From positions 1 through 35,365 of the IMG/VR virus record IMGVR_UViG_3300044511_000070: 35,365 nucleotides of DNA; one strand, given 5' to 3'. Made by a program: the position numbers and the translations under genes. The stretch comes from a virus. Below, piece by piece: positions 5,839 to 25,920 of the stretch. Each line of letters opens with the position of its first letter. The first letter of the stretch is position 1. The notes under the pieces are model-generated. The model saw only the letters and a list, made by a program, of their open reading frames with translations. It was not told the DNA's origin and did no database searches.

Positions 5839-6976
5839 CATGATGGCCGGCGTCGGGGACGCTGAGAAGGAACTCATTGAAGCGATCCGTAAGAAAACGG
5901 CAGCGGTCAATGAGGAGCGGGCGCTCATCGAGGCCAGGAACCTGCGCAAACGCATGCGCGGGATGTCCGTATCGGATTTCACAGAGATCGACAGGTATCA
6001 GGCGTCCCTACTGGAAGGCGGCGGGGATTTTTCATATATCCCGAATCGTCTGAAAGAAAAGCACGCGGCGGCGGTCCAGGCCGCGCTCGGAGACAGACCG
6101 TCCCCTATCGCAGCCGCGATGACGCGGGCACAGGAAGCGGAGGCGGCTGTCAGGGAGGCCAATCGACAGGCCGAGTCCGATCCGAAGGGACTGGAGAAGG
6201 TCATAGGAGAGGCAAAGACGGCTCTCGCGGCGTTGCCTGTGCCAGTGGTTGCAGCGGTCGCAGCCATCAAGTTGTTCGGAATGTCTGTCGCGGAATCTAA
6301 CGCCAACATTCAGAAGGGTGCGACAGATATAGGTCAAGGTCGCGTGAGAATGGGGCAAGCGATGCGCGATCTTGGATTTAGCCCAGCAGAGCAGGACATC
6401 ATCAGGACAAAGGCAGAATTTGCAGGATTCGGAAGAAACGTAACGCTCCAAGGCGTAGAGCAGTTCTTCTCATCTGCCGCTCGCGGATCAAACGTACAAG
6501 GATTCCAATTAAAGACACCGGAGACGCGCAAGCAGTTAATGGACCTGTTGGAACAAGTTAAGAGCGGCAAACTGGACATCGGTACTGCTTCGGAAATTGC
6601 AGGAGCAGGTCCGTTTCCTGCTGTCAGTGCTGCTATGCGTGGTGTTTTCAGAACCGACAGGGGAATGTTGTCGGAACAAGCCCAAACCACAACTGGTACT
6701 GTTGCGAATATCACGACATCTGCCCAGGCCGCGAGCTATGTGCAGGGAACCCGCATGTTGACAAAAGAGGCAGAGGCAAGCGCCAATGCGATGGGGTCTG
6801 TACCGGACGCTGTTGCCTTGTGGGTCGCTCAGAGGCTAGGCTTGTGGGATTCCGGTCTAAGATTATCGACCGGAGGGAAAGAGGATCCTGCGCTCGATGC
6901 GCTCAGGAAAATAGAACAGAAGACACCAGGTCCGCCGCCTCCATCAACTAACTCAGGAGCAGGAAACGTCAGATGA
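5825..6976 (+). CDS. Short tape-measure-like tail protein
   Basis: 383 residues from GTG at 5825, preceded by GAGGAG at 5813-5818. It is almost entirely helical and Ala/Glu/Arg-rich (EKELIEAIRKKTAAVNEERA and similar). One hydrophobic stretch (ALPVPVVAAVAAIKLFGMSV) near residue 140 resembles the membrane-active segment of tape measures. The C-terminus is Pro/Gly-rich. It lies before the tail-tip genes, as tape measures do. At about 0.15 nm per residue the tail would be near 55-60 nm, short for a siphovirus. Alternatives are an internal virion or ejection protein. Confidence 0.5.
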   Translation: MALPNMMAGVGDAEKELIEAIRKKTAAVNEERALIEARNLRKRMRGMSVSDFTEIDRYQASLLEGGGDFSYIPNRLKEKHAAAVQAALGDRPSPIAAAMTRAQEAEAAVREANRQAESDPKGLEKVIGEAKTALAALPVPVVAAVAAIKLFGMSVAESNANIQKGATDIGQGRVRMGQAMRDLGFSPAEQDIIRTKAEFAGFGRNVTLQGVEQFFSSAARGSNVQGFQLKTPETRKQLMDLLEQVKSGKLDIGTASEIAGAGPFPAVSAAMRGVFRTDRGMLSEQAQTTTGTVANITTSAQAASYVQGTRMLTKEAEASANAMGSVPDAVALWVAQRLGLWDSGLRLSTGGKEDPALDALRKIEQKTPGPPPPSTNSGAGNVR

Positions 6977-16403: not shown

Positions 16404-16912
16404 TACTTCGCTTTCTCCAGCAGTGCGGCGATGCGAGCCTCTAGGTCGAAGTTCCGGCGCCCTATCTTGCCGTCGTCCCACCTGTCTAGTTCATCGTGTG
16501 CCTCCCGCAGCAGCGCCATGGCGGCGTCACGCTCGGCTTCCGCCTTCTGCCACCGCTGGATCTCGTCAGCCACGCCGCTACCGTCGCGGAGATTCTTGAA
16601 CCCCCGCTCCGCCTTCTCGGCCCGCTCCGTCATGGCGGCGAGTTCGGCGCGGAGGCGGGCGATCTCGGCACACGCTGCCCTGACTCGCTCCCGGCAGGTG
16701 GTCAGTGGCCCCATGTCGAGTTCCTTTCGAAGTTCCTTCCAGTCGTCGCCGGTCGGATCGTCGTCGTGGCTCTCCTGGCAGATCGTCTCGTCACCTGGCA
16801 GCATCGCCAGCGACACAGGAAGACCGTTGCCGTCAGGTGGGCTCGGCATTAGGTGGTAGTGCTGGCGCAGGTCTGCTTCCAGGCGGGCGAGGCGTTGTTC
16901 GATGGTGCTCAT
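16403..16912 (-). CDS. Coiled-coil protein upstream of polymerase
   Basis: 169 residues, not recognised. The start MSTIEQRLAR is preceded by AAGGA, seven bases from the ATG. After a Pro/Asp/Glu-rich linker (residues ~22-60) the remainder is a long heptad-rich helix (RVRAACAEIARLRAELAAMTERAEKAERG... and EAERDAAMALLREAHDELDRW). The stop overlaps the polymerase start, which suggests coupled expression. Its first ten codons and leader are almost identical to those of the methyltransferase just upstream in the operon. It may be an oligomeric accessory or scaffold protein; function unknown. Confidence 0.65.
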   Translation of the reverse strand: MSTIEQRLARLEADLRQHYHLMPSPPDGNGLPVSLAMLPGDETICQESHDDDPTGDDWKELRKELDMGPLTTCRERVRAACAEIARLRAELAAMTERAEKAERGFKNLRDGSGVADEIQRWQKAEAERDAAMALLREAHDELDRWDDGKIGRRNFDLEARIAALLEKAK

Positions 16913-16932
16913 GGTGATTCCTTGTTGGTGGC
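16884..16932 (-). repeat. 49-bp direct repeat, copy at coiled-coil gene start
   Basis: 47 of 49 bases match 17559-17607 in the same orientation. The unit covers the Shine-Dalgarno, the ATG and the first ten codons (MSTIEQRLAR) of the coiled-coil gene. The two copies flank the methyltransferase body and are 675 bp apart. Confidence 0.95.
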
Positions 16933-16954: not shown

Positions 16955-17587
16955 CTAGGGTAAAAGCTGTTGTTCCAGACGACGAGCGGCAATCCTGCAA
17001 TACTTTTCTTCTCTTTCCACACCGATGGCTCTTTTCCCTAATTTCTTAGCTGCAACCAGGGTCGTGCCGCTGCCCATGAATGGGTCTATGATCGCCCCTT
17101 CCTTGTGGAAACGAGTAATCACCGCCTCCATCAACCCGACTGGCTTACTGCAAGGGTGGCCAGGGTAGCGTTTCTCCATCTTGCTGTACTTTATTGTGTC
17201 TAGACCATACCTGTTATTGTTCTTGCCGTAGAACAACATTGGCTGCCATGAATTGTACCCTATCTTCCCCCACGACCCCGTTGTGCCGTAAAACCAGCAA
17301 GCGATCCAATCGGCTTTTGGATACCTCCACACATTATGGATGCCTGGGAAAATTACCGATCTTTCCGCTTTAGCAATGTATTCACTTATCGTCGGGATAA
17401 GTGCTTCTAGATTGCTCACGCTATCGTCGTATCCGATGTAATCTATATCCAGCCCATACGGCGGATCGGTGAGCAGGAGATCAACGCGGTCGAGAAATGG
17501 AACAACATCGGCACAATTGCAATTATATATGGTGATGCCGTCTTCATCGTAGTAGGGACGGGCGAGGCGTTGTTCAATGGTGCTCAT
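16955..17587 (-). CDS. Beta-class DNA methyltransferase (N6-adenine or N4-cytosine)
   Basis: 210 residues. The catalytic motif TDPPYG is at 40-45 and the SAM-binding motif DPFMGSGTT at 168-176. The order catalytic motif, target region, then SAM motif is that of the beta class (N6_N4_Mtase). Residues 1-10 are copied from the downstream coiled-coil gene; the conserved core starts around YYDEDGITIYNCNCADV. No restriction enzyme lies nearby, so this is an orphan enzyme likely protecting phage DNA from host restriction or marking it. The target sequence cannot be read from the gene. It is compact, with a short target-recognition region. Confidence 0.92.
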   Translation of the reverse strand: MSTIEQRLARPYYDEDGITIYNCNCADVVPFLDRVDLLLTDPPYGLDIDYIGYDDSVSNLEALIPTISEYIAKAERSVIFPGIHNVWRYPKADWIACWFYGTTGSWGKIGYNSWQPMLFYGKNNNRYGLDTIKYSKMEKRYPGHPCSKPVGLMEAVITRFHKEGAIIDPFMGSGTTLVAAKKLGKRAIGVEREEKYCRIAARRLEQQLLP

Positions 17588-17607
17588 GGTGGTTCCTTGT
17601 TGGTGGC
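17559..17607 (-). repeat. 49-bp direct repeat, copy at methyltransferase start
   Basis: Second copy of the repeat at 16884-16932 (two mismatches), supplying the methyltransferase with its ribosome-binding site and first ten codons. Recombination between copies would remove the methyltransferase and leave the coiled-coil gene with an intact start. Confidence 0.95.
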
Positions 17608-20639: not shown

Positions 20640-20918
20640 TTAGTCTCTTGGTTCGCAGACGAGGTACGTGACGTGCCAGACGACAGCCACGCCAGCGAAC
20701 GCTGCGAGGTAGACGGCAGGGGTGTAGGCTGAGAGGAGGCACATCACAGCCGACGCGACGATAAAGATGATCGCGCAGATGAGGGCGTAGTGCTTTTCTT
20801 CCTCACGATGCCGGGTGCTGACCTCTTCGGTGCGTCCGCAGACACGACAGGTGAAGATGCTGCTGTTCTCCGTGTGCCTGATCTCGCAGTCAGACGTTGT
20901 GCAGTCGTGACGCCTCAC
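20640..20918 (-). CDS. Zinc-ribbon membrane protein
   Basis: 92 residues. Residues ~5-30 have CTTSDC and CRVCG, a likely zinc knuckle facing the cytoplasm. Two strongly hydrophobic segments follow (ALICAIIFIVASAVMCLLSAY at about 45-65 and AVYLAAFAGVAVVWHVTYLV at about 68-87). It overlaps the upstream RHH-like gene by ATGA. This combination of zinc ribbon and two membrane helices has no family name I recognise; a membrane-attached regulator or anti-host factor is possible, but not shown. Confidence 0.65.
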   Translation of the reverse strand: MRRHDCTTSDCEIRHTENSSIFTCRVCGRTEEVSTRHREEEKHYALICAIIFIVASAVMCLLSAYTPAVYLAAFAGVAVVWHVTYLVCEPRD

Positions 20919-21112
20919 AGCGCCCCCGCACAGTGCGCACGAATGACGCGGATCAGATAGGCTGCCACCGACCGGTCGTCCTCCTGAGCCATCTTGGACA
21001 CGACAGCATACTCCGCAGCCGTCATGCAGAGCTTGACGGCCCTGGAGCGTCGGGCGGAGGGGGGAAGGGGAGGCCGACCGGATGGCGGGGCGGAGGGGGT
21101 TTTCTTGCTCAT
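20915..21112 (-). CDS. Small RHH/helix-turn-helix-like protein
   Basis: 65 residues from ATG at 21112, with AAGG in the leader; a longer in-frame start exists but lacks a Shine-Dalgarno. After a Pro/Ser/Lys-rich N-terminus, AVKLCMTAAEYAVVSKMAQEDDRSVAAYLIRVIRAH has the strand-helix-helix pattern of ribbon-helix-helix (CopG/Arc) DNA-binding proteins. It could repress phage promoters as a dimer. It overlaps the membrane-protein gene downstream. Two other RHH-like proteins are encoded in the window. Confidence 0.6.
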   Translation of the reverse strand: MSKKTPSAPPSGRPPLPPSARRSRAVKLCMTAAEYAVVSKMAQEDDRSVAAYLIRVIRAHCAGAL

Positions 21113-21182
21113 GGGCGGAACCTTAAAGGGCTTGTAAGGGGCGTCAAGGGGTTTCTTGGGACTGACGAGATTGCTTGTGTTT

Positions 21183-21410
21183 TTACTCGGTTTTGCTCGC
21201 GTAAGCATCGATCTGGTCCAGCGAAGTGTTCACCGGCCCCCTCCAGAAAGGCCGGCACGGCCACCAACTGGTGGGCGGATCTCCACGCAGGTGAGCCCAT
21301 GTCTCACGGTCGAGTGGCAGTGGCGGGATGATTCGGATGGACTCTGGCGTGCGGTGGAGGGTGTGCAGCGTCCAGCCGTCGCCGGAGGCGGCGTAGGGGG
21401 AGGGGGTCAT
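21183..21410 (-). CDS. Unknown 75-residue protein
   Basis: The ATG at 21410 overlaps the stop of the zinc-ribbon gene upstream (ATGA), which is the main support for this gene. The protein is Pro/Trp-rich (PPTSWWPCRPFWRGP) without clear secondary structure, and ends DQIDAYASKTE. A 70-bp gap separates it from the next leftward gene. Not recognised. Confidence 0.5.
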   Translation of the reverse strand: MTPSPYAASGDGWTLHTLHRTPESIRIIPPLPLDRETWAHLRGDPPTSWWPCRPFWRGPVNTSLDQIDAYASKTE

Positions 21411-22415: not shown

Positions 22416-24722
22416 ATGTCACTCGCACACGCCTGCCGCGATCTGGTGGTCGCCGGCCTCAACGTCCTACCCGCACACCCAGTCGAAAAGCGGCCTTTGG
22501 CCGGGGACTGGACTCGATACCGAGACCGACCGATGGGAGGCGAAGAGGCGGTGACGAGGGTCCAGGAGGCCGGGGCCGTTGGGATTATCACAGGAAACGG
22601 CATCGAGTGCATCGACTTCGACCTGAGCGGCGCAGCATGGCCCGAGTGGAGAAGGCGGGTGATGGAGGCCGACCCCGACGCTCTCGACGGGGTGTACGTC
22701 GAGCGGTCGCAGTCGGGCGGGTATCACGTCGTGTACAGGTGTCAAGAGGTCAGCGAGTCGAGGAAGCTGACCACCTGGGTTACGCAGGCTCACAAGGTTG
22801 CAAAAAAGTCCTTGACACGATTCTCTAAGGAAATCCCACTGGAAATCTTCGCAGCCGACGACGGCTCACTCTCGTGGCGTGTCGTCGGTAAGCGAAAGTC
22901 GTACAAAGTCAACAGCTATGGCATGGCCGAGCTGATCCCCATCGAGACGCGCGGGGATGGCGGGTTTCTGGTGGTGGCTCCGTCACCAGGTTACACGCCG
23001 GTTACGGGGTCACTGGCCGAGATGGCAGAGGTGACGGTCGAGCAGCGGGACTTGTTCATCAGGTCTGCGGTCGAGATGTCTGACGGGGATGTCGAGGGGA
23101 GGGCAGAGGGAGATGGGCGTGTCACGCTAAAAGACGAGGCCACGCGCATCGGTGAGTGGTACACCGCCAACGGGGACCATACGGCGCTGCTGGAGGAGGC
23201 AGGATGGACCCTCAAGCGCGAGCACAGGGGCCGGGAGGAGTGGGTGCGGCCTGGAAAGGGGGAGCGGGATGGTATAGGGGGCACGTGGACGAAAGAAACG
23301 AGGCTGTTCCATGTCTTCACGACCTCAGACCCGAAACTTCCCGCCAATGGGCAGGGAAACGGGGATTACACTCTTTTCAAACTTTACACGTATCTCAAGC
23401 ACAATCGAGACTTCAAGAAAGCAGCACGAAAGCTGAAAATTGAATACCCCGAGGCGGCAGCAGAGATCAAGAACCACAACCTGATGGCTATTAGTGATAA
23501 GCTGTCGCCAGAGACGAAGGCTAAGGTCTGTTCGGACTTGGATGGCGTGCCTTGGAATGAGGTTCCTATGGACTACCTGCATGTTGTGGTGTCTGTTCGG
23601 ACTACAATGGAGAAGGGTGGACTCAGCTTCAACGCGGTGGGAGGGCTGTGCGTCGAGGGGGCGATCAACGCCAAGACGACGGTGAACTTGAGCAACGATG
23701 CCTACCACGCTTTGAAGCTGGAGCACCTGGAGGTGTCCTACGCCGACGTGTGCAGAAGGGTTGAGCAGGTGCAGCACAAGGATGCGTTGCTGCGACGGGC
23801 GAGCATCGTGGGCGACATGTGCGGCCTCGATCGGTTGGAGGAAGGGGAGGAGGAGTTGAAGAGGTTGATGGTTGCGATCTCGGGGGAGTTCAGGGAGGCA
23901 GACTACCAGGCCATGAGGCACCTGATGTGGAACGTCAAGTCGAAGGCCATGGGGAAGGGCGGCTGCGATCACCATTGCATTATTTTCACCAACGTCGCCA
24001 ATGGTGGCGGCAAGAGTGTCATGGTGAGGAAGGTGATGAGCCCGTGGCAGGAGTTGGCAGAGGGAAAATTGGAGATCAAGGCGATCGTGGACGAGAAGCG
24101 CACTCGTATCTTGGCGGATTTATTGATTGCGAACCTTGACGAGATGTCGGGTATGGAAAAGGCAGACCTTGATGAATTCAAATCCAAGATCACGGCTGAG
24201 ACGTGCACCTATCGTCCGATGCGGACGAACGACTCGTGCCAGATCAAGGTGAACTGTTCCTTTTTCGGCACGAGTAATAAGCCCGTGTCGATGCTGGTGC
24301 GTGACGTGACGGGTAATCGGAGATTTTATCAGATCGACACGTTAGCCAGATTAGATTGGGACACGATAAATGGGATCGATTACAATCTGATCTGGCGGGC
24401 GGTGGATGAACGGGAGGAGGCACCTGGGGTGGTTCACAGGGAAATGGTTTCGGCGGTTAAAGCGGAGCAACGCTGGGATAGCACGGTGCTGGAATGGGTT
24501 GCTGATGAGGATGCCAAGGGTTGGATCTCGGATGCCGAATTTGGGGCCTTGGACGTGACCCAGGTGGTGCCGACACGGGAGCTTTACCGGCGGTACTGTT
24601 CCTGGTGTTTAATTAACCACGAGAAAGCGGAGTGGATTAACAACATGGTCTTGACGTTAATGGCGAGGGGGTGGAAAAATGTGCGCACGATGCACGCAAG
24701 GGGCATGTGTAGGTCTAAATGA
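22416..24722 (+). CDS. Primase-polymerase / SF3 helicase
   Basis: 768 residues. The N-terminal prim-pol domain has CIDFDL near 69 (metal-binding DxD) and RSQSGGYHVVYR near 98-109 with the catalytic His. A linker with a PriCT-like helical region follows (TLFKLYTYLKHNRDFKKAARKL, ~325). The C-terminal ATPase has Walker A NGGGKS near 529, Walker B LIANLDEM near 571, FFGTSN near 615 and GNRRFY with a likely arginine finger near 631, typical of DUF5906/VirE-like SF3 helicases. It should prime DNA synthesis and unwind the fork. It is the only gene rightward from the divergent region and is followed by the iteron region and a terminator. Confidence 0.88.
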   Translation: MSLAHACRDLVVAGLNVLPAHPVEKRPLAGDWTRYRDRPMGGEEAVTRVQEAGAVGIITGNGIECIDFDLSGAAWPEWRRRVMEADPDALDGVYVERSQSGGYHVVYRCQEVSESRKLTTWVTQAHKVAKKSLTRFSKEIPLEIFAADDGSLSWRVVGKRKSYKVNSYGMAELIPIETRGDGGFLVVAPSPGYTPVTGSLAEMAEVTVEQRDLFIRSAVEMSDGDVEGRAEGDGRVTLKDEATRIGEWYTANGDHTALLEEAGWTLKREHRGREEWVRPGKGERDGIGGTWTKETRLFHVFTTSDPKLPANGQGNGDYTLFKLYTYLKHNRDFKKAARKLKIEYPEAAAEIKNHNLMAISDKLSPETKAKVCSDLDGVPWNEVPMDYLHVVVSVRTTMEKGGLSFNAVGGLCVEGAINAKTTVNLSNDAYHALKLEHLEVSYADVCRRVEQVQHKDALLRRASIVGDMCGLDRLEEGEEELKRLMVAISGEFREADYQAMRHLMWNVKSKAMGKGGCDHHCIIFTNVANGGGKSVMVRKVMSPWQELAEGKLEIKAIVDEKRTRILADLLIANLDEMSGMEKADLDEFKSKITAETCTYRPMRTNDSCQIKVNCSFFGTSNKPVSMLVRDVTGNRRFYQIDTLARLDWDTINGIDYNLIWRAVDEREEAPGVVHREMVSAVKAEQRWDSTVLEWVADEDAKGWISDAEFGALDVTQVVPTRELYRRYCSWCLINHEKAEWINNMVLTLMARGWKNVRTMHARGMCRSK

Positions 24723-24746
24723 ATAGTAGTTTTGACGCTTAGAACC

Positions 24747-25120
24747 CATGACGCACCCGCTTTGAGGGGTGCGTCATGCGAAAAACCCTAGTATTTTTAC
24801 TAGGGTTTTTTCATTTTTAGACCCCATCCATGACGCACATGACGCACTTTTCCCTATTCCCCTACCGCCACTATACGGCCCCCACCCCTTTTCTGCCTAT
24901 GGCCTTTTTGCTAGCCGGTCGGTAAAGGAGGAAAAGTGCGTCATGCCTAGTGCTAAAATTAAATAAATGCTAGCATTTCTACTACGATTTTTGCATGACG
25001 CACCCCCCAAAAAAGTGCGTCATGCGTTTCTCGTCAAAAATTAAAGAAACACTAGTAAAAACACTACACTTTTAGCGCATGACGCACCTTTTTCGGGGGG
25101 TGCGTCATGGGTGCGTCATG
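24747..25120. repeat. Iteron cluster: ten copies of ATGACGCAC, candidate replication origin
   Basis: The 9-mer ATGACGCAC occurs forward at 24748, 24830, 24839, 24995 and 25079, and as GTGCGTCAT at 24769, 24936, 15 bases into the 25000s (25015), 25100 and 25111. Three forward/reverse pairs (24748/24769, 24995/25015, 25079/25100) start 20-21 bp apart, about two helical turns, and each can fold into a hairpin. A longer inverted pair (24840-24853 with 24930-24943) encloses ~76 bases. The cluster lies just after the primase-helicase gene and next to an AT-rich tract, as at iteron-type origins. An operator cluster for a regulator is the main alternative. Confidence 0.8.
24781..24810. terminator. 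Rho-independent terminator after primase-helicase
   Basis: AAAAACCCTAGTA (24781-24793) pairs perfectly with TACTAGGGTTTTT (24798-24810) over a TTTT loop, with A-runs before and T-runs after, so it can terminate in both directions. It is placed about 60 bases after the primase-helicase stop, between the first iteron pair and the second. Confidence 0.85.
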
Positions 25121-25310
25121 CTTTTCAAAAAGGGGTGGGGTAAAATAAATGCCCACCCCCCCTAACCCCTTGTCACTACTGAAAATCATATAAAATATTT
25201 TTTTCTAAGTATATAAAAAAAATCATAAAGATACGATTTTTTTAATAGGGTTAAAAATGCCAGAACAATTTATTTTATGGTAAACTTTATTTATTATTAT
25301 CGGACATTTT
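25121..25310. other. GC hairpin and AT-rich tract, possible DNA-unwinding element
   Basis: GGGGTGGG at 25132-25139 pairs with CCCACCCC at 25152-25159. From about 25170 to 25310 the sequence is nearly all A and T, with runs of up to eight T or A (ATATTTTTTTCTAAG, TATATAAAAAAAATC). Such tracts next to iterons are where origins melt. No open reading frame of credible quality crosses it. Confidence 0.55.
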
Positions 25311-25920
25311 TTCAGAGTGTGTCACACAAGTGCCAGTTTCGGGTGCTTAAATGGCGGTTACGGGTTTTTAAGAATGATTTTTTTTTTTAAAGCCGTTGCA
25401 GAATCGAAAACGCATCTTAATGGCGCGAAGTCAAATGGATTCACCTGGAATGCAATTAAATCCCGGGTCCGTATTAACCCGAGAGAGGGGGCGAGCCGGG
25501 GCGGTTTGCCAGGTGATTATGGGTGATTGTGTGCCGGGAGGACTCGGGAGCGGGGCGATTTCGGCGGCTCTCATGGGGGATTATGAGGGACTTCGAACCC
25601 CTTGCAAGTGATTTTTCCGCTGAAAATCAAAAATTTTCGGAAACAATGCCAGAGCATCGATCCGGCCGGAATTTTTAAATTGGGCTTTCGGGCCATTGGT
25701 AAATTAATTGCGTAGTGGTTTTTCAGTACTTGGTAAATAATTTGCTAGTGGGATTTTCCGCTTGCGTTTGCGTCATGATTTTTCGGTACGCTTGAAAATT
25801 GTTTGACACACTTTCGGCCTGGATGGCGGAACCATTAAATAGTGATTTCGTGGCTGGTAATTCCCTGGCATAGTAGGGGCATCACCACAACAGCCGGCAT
25901 GCCCGGCAAAGGATCCGACC
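25311..25920. other. Non-coding stretch with degenerate direct repeats
   Basis: No convincing gene is present. Two imperfect 34-bp tandem units lie at 25696-25729 and 25730-25763, each starting TTGGTAAAT and continuing through a TAGTGG-like core into TTTTC/ATTTTCC. Several other short variants of 'GTGATTTTTCCGCT' occur (e.g. near 25608). One extra ATGACG-like match (TCATGATTTTTC, ~25784) is not a full iteron. The 3' end holds a 5-bp hairpin (GCCGG/CCGGC, 25893-25907) right before the first small gene's Shine-Dalgarno. Confidence 0.5.

Follow-up and report, generated by a model that had tools for sequence, protein, structure and literature searches.

The ten-copy repeat array that follows the primase-helicase gene of this phage is probably its replication origin, a rep-ori module of the SaPI/PICI type in which iterons are read by the Prim-Pol/VapE helicase encoded immediately upstream. 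We favour this reading because the layout of the array core and its adjacency to a helicase gene recur in relatives, which gives comparative support from sequence, and because the copies are confined to 374 bp directly past the helicase gene. The window analysed is the whole virus record, 35,365 bp in length.

Ten exact copies of the 9-mer ATGACGCAC are present, five forward (starts 24748, 24830, 24839, 24995 and 25079) and five reverse (24769, 24936, 25015, 25100 and 25111), with none elsewhere in the record; 100 dinucleotide shuffles gave a mean of 0.55 copies and a maximum of 2. All ten extend to the 10-mer CATGACGCAC. The array (24747-25120) starts 24 bp past the stop of the helicase gene. 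The initial annotation had described ten copies, five per strand, within about 370 bp, lying right after this gene and before an AT-rich tract, with three inverted pairs about 20-21 bp apart; these descriptions hold, with start-to-start distances of 21, 20 and 21 bp and a tract GC content of 0.29 (25121-25330), falling to 0.23 at 25160-25310. Between the members of the remaining inverted pair (24839/24936) there are 88 bp, and not the approximately 76 bases given previously. The arrangement is that of a core, made up of two forward copies in tandem, a spacer and one reverse copy, with palindromic pairs on either side, and the individual features are as follows:

22416-24722, plus strand: primase-helicase gene (768 aa, Prim-Pol and VapE-like SF3-type helicase), the proposed initiator
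24747-25120, unstranded: iteron array, ten copies of CATGACGCAC by count, five per strand
24747-24778, unstranded: palindromic pair 1 (forward 24748, reverse 24769)
24780-24811, plus strand: terminator-like hairpin past the helicase gene, 14 pairs and a T tail, distinct from the iterons
24829-24847, plus strand: core left half-array, two tandem CATGACGCAC with a start spacing of 9 bp (7-10 bp in relatives)
24848-24935, unstranded: core spacer of 88 bp, starting TTTTCC and ending GGAAAA, the proposed assembly or melting zone
24936-24945, minus strand: core right half-site, CATGACGCAC
24955-25076, plus strand: two AT-rich imperfect repeats of about 40 nt between iterons (24955-24994 and 25037-25076)
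24994-25024, unstranded: palindromic pair 2 (forward 24995, reverse 25015)
25078-25120, unstranded: palindromic group 3 (forward 25079, reverse 25100 and 25111)
25121-25330, unstranded: AT-rich tract, a candidate unwinding region

With a GC content of 0.53, the core spacer is not in itself AT-rich; AT-rich DNA sits between the other copies and past the array, and the two imperfect repeats, with a nearby GC content of 0.32-0.35, are possible sites of easily melted DNA. As the longest stop-to-stop stretch within 24723-25920 is 80 codons, the region appears to be non-coding. The array DNA has no similarity to that of named phages. GC skew, which had been suggested as a check, follows the coding strand and so cannot place the origin here. 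Elsewhere in the window, two adjacent ORFs on the minus strand both begin with MSTIEQRLAR owing to a 49-bp direct repeat (16884-16932 and 17559-17607, 96% identity), which is a duplicated 5′ end that takes in the upstream leader.

It had been proposed that an array of the same word be sought in other phage contigs, and roughly twenty of them prove to have both the word and the layout downstream of a related helicase gene. The first search, with a 20-base paired pattern, returned one other viral contig (L009, from Pararhodospirillum oryzae), in which TGACGCAC-like copies in both orientations begin 35 bp past a VapE gene; among 27 genome stretches carrying this pattern, an array was present only in L023, which is the same locus as L009, and the others seem to be isolated pairs. 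A pattern describing the core, TGACGCAC N68-98 GTGCGTCA N0-6 GCGTCA (inverted copies separated by 68-98 bp), matched 21 viral contigs versus 4 for a mirror-image control, all four of which have the same spacing and are therefore perhaps one element. The array lies at the 3′ end of a helicase gene in 18 of the 21. Fifteen of these genes are VapE-type (nine confirmed by Pfam, six assigned by the same C-terminal tail), with the array overlapping the stop or lying within about 40 bp of it, and three are D5_N-type (L107, L118 and L113, the last assigned by a tail nearly identical to that of L107). A Prim-Pol/D5_N gene is present on contig L015, L105 has the array with no helicase assigned on the contig, and the match in L109 falls inside an ORF and seems due to chance. 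Since the contigs were picked by a DNA motif and not by gene content, their helicase adjacency is informative.

Two further loci were noted alongside these contigs. L013 carries a TGACGCA array (6800-6937) 2 bp past the stop of a gene for an AAA_25 (RepA-like) ATPase, a helicase class other than VapE and D5_N. On the Roseomonas plasmid p546-5 (L123, 1379-1540), a shortened VapE gene lies beside an IS21-type ATPase gene with three TGACGC sites nearby, and this locus looks like a decayed copy of the VapE-iteron module.

Comparison of the cores reveals a common architecture, in which forward copies in tandem are separated by 50-100 bp from the reverse copies that face them. For the 21 relatives and the window, the gap between the inner hexamers has the same 50-100 bp range, with a median of 78 bp (92 bp in the window), and the inner sites tend to read RTGACGCACTTYCC going inward. 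In the relatives, the TT..C extension is found at 21 of 42 inner but only 4 of 92 outer sites (p=2e-9). In the window, TTTTCC is present at both inner sites, 24839 and 24936; as 25015 is flanked by a T run and then G, and 25079 by CTTTTTC, the extension is a tendency and not a strict mark. Some relatives (e.g. L009, L104 and L119) also have flanking forward/reverse pairs, but these are spaced by 17-26 bp, so the exact two-turn phasing described in the initial annotation is not shared, and what recurs is the tandem copies and the facing-array core. Searching the viral contigs for cores with exact TTTTCC edges and a gap of 40-70 gave no match, a result which says little because that range excludes the window's own 76-bp gap. 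Many core spacers (L102, L103, L106, L107 and L116) contain alternating purine-pyrimidine runs (GCGCGCACACAC-like), which are absent from the window spacer.

Repeats are also common after VapE genes more generally. A set of VapE loci, identified for the most part from the protein, also takes in the window and the L009 locus. In this set, an 8-mer repeated beyond shuffles (p<=0.004) was present around or downstream of the stop (-30 to +470) at 17 of 39 loci, compared with 1 of 41 in-gene controls (Fisher p=7e-6) and 4 of 32 regions at +800 to +1300. The repeat sequence varies from gene to gene, and some loci have no array within 500 bp. Named phages with an array after VapE include PS3 (GGGGTGACC), phiSP15-1 (GTTGCAACA) and Adelaide (GGGACAACC), as well as LPPA36 (CTGTCCCA), where one gene lies between; VarioGold and BU730P1 have no clear array after VapE. 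An array also follows VapE directly on the plasmids pGO128 and pKNA06. In pGO128 (L121, NC_003374.1, 4.3 kb) no replication protein other than VapE is evident, and VapE is followed by an array around AGTGCTGAA (2684-2960), making this plasmid a compact test case for a VapE replicon.

The window helicase matches Pfam families PF09250 (E=3.3e-8) and PF05272 (E=1.1e-15). Its best solved relative is SaPI5 PriRep1 (7PDS; sequence E=4e-5), which is also the top fold match, albeit for a low-confidence model. Among the helicases compared, TGACGC arrays accompany Q[RQ]R[IL] tails in 5 of 5 cases versus 0 of 60 other tails, a count that includes the close relatives L049 and L050 and is uncorrected for relatedness. 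Four of the five tails were matched by the regular expression, and that of L048 was read by eye as QRRI; L048 is the L009 locus, which had first come from the motif search, and leaving it out makes the count 4/4. A second correlation, of [QE]MR[VI] tails with GGAAC repeats (7/19 versus 4/46, p=0.01), is only suggestive. The window helicase has I-N-N at the position of Q-R-R in the Q[RQ]R[IL] partners, and the partner tail profile detects neither it nor any other window ORF, yet its tail aligns with the partner tails in MAFFT. Models of its C-terminal domain are of low confidence, folding the last 140 residues from the single sequence gave an unusable model (pLDDT 36), and the Pfam tail family Pox_D5 gives a sub-threshold hint (E=0.15). 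Given the different helix, the profile miss and the low-confidence C-terminal model, we infer the pairing of helicase and iteron in the window itself. The viral contigs contain no close relatives of the window helicase or of the window DNA polymerase; the most similar DNA polymerase, at 39%, is that of MW202897.1, where a gene is annotated as VapE but there is no TGACGCAC array.

The departure from the recognition helix common to the VapE partners of this iteron would be expected if the array were an origin at which some other protein, of the phage or the host, recognised the iterons and the helicase was recruited as a second step. We consider this improbable, as the partner tail profile finds no match in the remaining window ORFs, D5_N helicases with tails unlike those of VapE also carry TGACGCAC arrays, and the repeat sequence changes with the helicase between elements, which argues against a single host reader. 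It is similarly unlikely that the array serves as a cluster of operators through which a transcriptional regulator controls a nearby promoter. The window does encode an RHH-like protein (20915-21208; the match is below the curated cut-off), the minus strand has a promoter-like match at 25325-25296, and in L016 (1750-1829) an Arc-family RHH gene adjoins four TGACGCA sites, which are possibly an operator with a similar word. However, the promoter scan used a weak consensus only, the L016 example stands alone and came from a pattern search which yields chance matches as well, and ten copies over 374 bp, mostly past the gene stop, would make an unusual operator. Moreover, arrays recur at helicase gene 3′ ends in unrelated contigs, and the gene that regularly adjoins them is that of the helicase, which lends no support to the AT-hook or RHH binders suggested initially.

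Only a slight chance attaches to the repeats being transcribed hairpins, involved in termination or RNA processing, instead of double-stranded binding sites. The iteron pairs can form hairpins, as had been pointed out, although nothing shows that hairpins are needed, and the strong terminator-like hairpin at 24780-24811 is a sequence separate from the iterons. The tandem-facing layout over 50-100 bp in relatives is not a compact hairpin design, and an Rfam search gave no match.

With respect to known systems, SaPI/PICI logic fits the window best. SaPI Rep and SCCmec Cch2 each read repeats directly downstream of their own genes (PMC7581432), whilst PICI origins have an AT-rich region with an iteron set on each side, and a rep-ori segment is able to replicate when cloned (PMC6092414). 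The window shares with SaPI Rep-ori (especially SaPI5 PriRep1, 7PDS) and PICI pri-rep-ori a self-loading VapE-related helicase (PMC7581432, PMC6092414), short iterons directly past the helicase gene, and facing iteron sets around a spacer. It differs in belonging to a 35-kb tailed-phage record, in its iteron CATGACGCAC, in the extra palindromic pairs that flank the core, and in that its facing sets enclose an 88-bp spacer of GC 0.53 where PICIs have an AT-rich centre. Cch2 offers a further parallel, as this D5-type helicase binds repeats located past the gene that encodes it (PMC7581432), but it has three short iterons in a 23-bp repeat, a separate polymerase-type primase and no ten-copy array. 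ORF904 of the crenarchaeal plasmid pRN1 likewise combines Prim-Pol and an SF3 helicase, with a C-terminal winged helix, and has its origin just downstream of the gene, but that origin is a stem-loop of about 100 bp without typical iterons (PMC4234260). The window contains ten dispersed iterons instead of such a single large stem-loop. Phage P4 alpha, relative to the window helicase, has a Toprim-type primase instead of Prim-Pol, and its repeats and layout are different. As cited in PMC10516667 and PMC4234260, alpha is a primase-helicase fusion with a C-terminal winged-helix origin-binding domain, acting with iterons. Our comparison and the published SaPI, PICI and SCCmec systems support the proposal of an iteron-type origin at which the neighbouring primase-helicase acts, but not the helical phasing and AT-hook/RHH elements attached to it.

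According to the origin reading, the Prim-Pol/VapE helicase would recognise the CATGACGCAC iterons that lie immediately past its own gene, probably via its C-terminal winged-helix-like tail, and would assemble on the two facing core half-arrays (24830/24839 and 24936). It may then melt the spacer or nearby AT-rich DNA and load as two opposed rings, with the Prim-Pol domain priming synthesis. The flanking palindromic pairs could be auxiliary sites, raising the local protein concentration or regulating firing.

A broader and more doubtful idea is that TGACGCAC constitutes a portable origin code, in which at least three helicase classes (VapE, D5_N and, in L013, AAA_25) of unrelated phages and prophages use one iteron, a facing-array core and a common type of recognition helix. 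A shared TGACGCAC iteron family was not found in the literature searched (an open library). If such a code exists, elements bearing it could trigger or inhibit replication from one another's origins, and the helicase tail could be used to predict which origin is recognised. Many phage origins are unmapped. If VapE-type helicases commonly precede their own iterons, and the iteron tracks the recognition helix, then both origins and their specificity would be predictable from sequence for many phages, satellites and plasmids, and such predictions could be checked by simple plasmid and binding assays.
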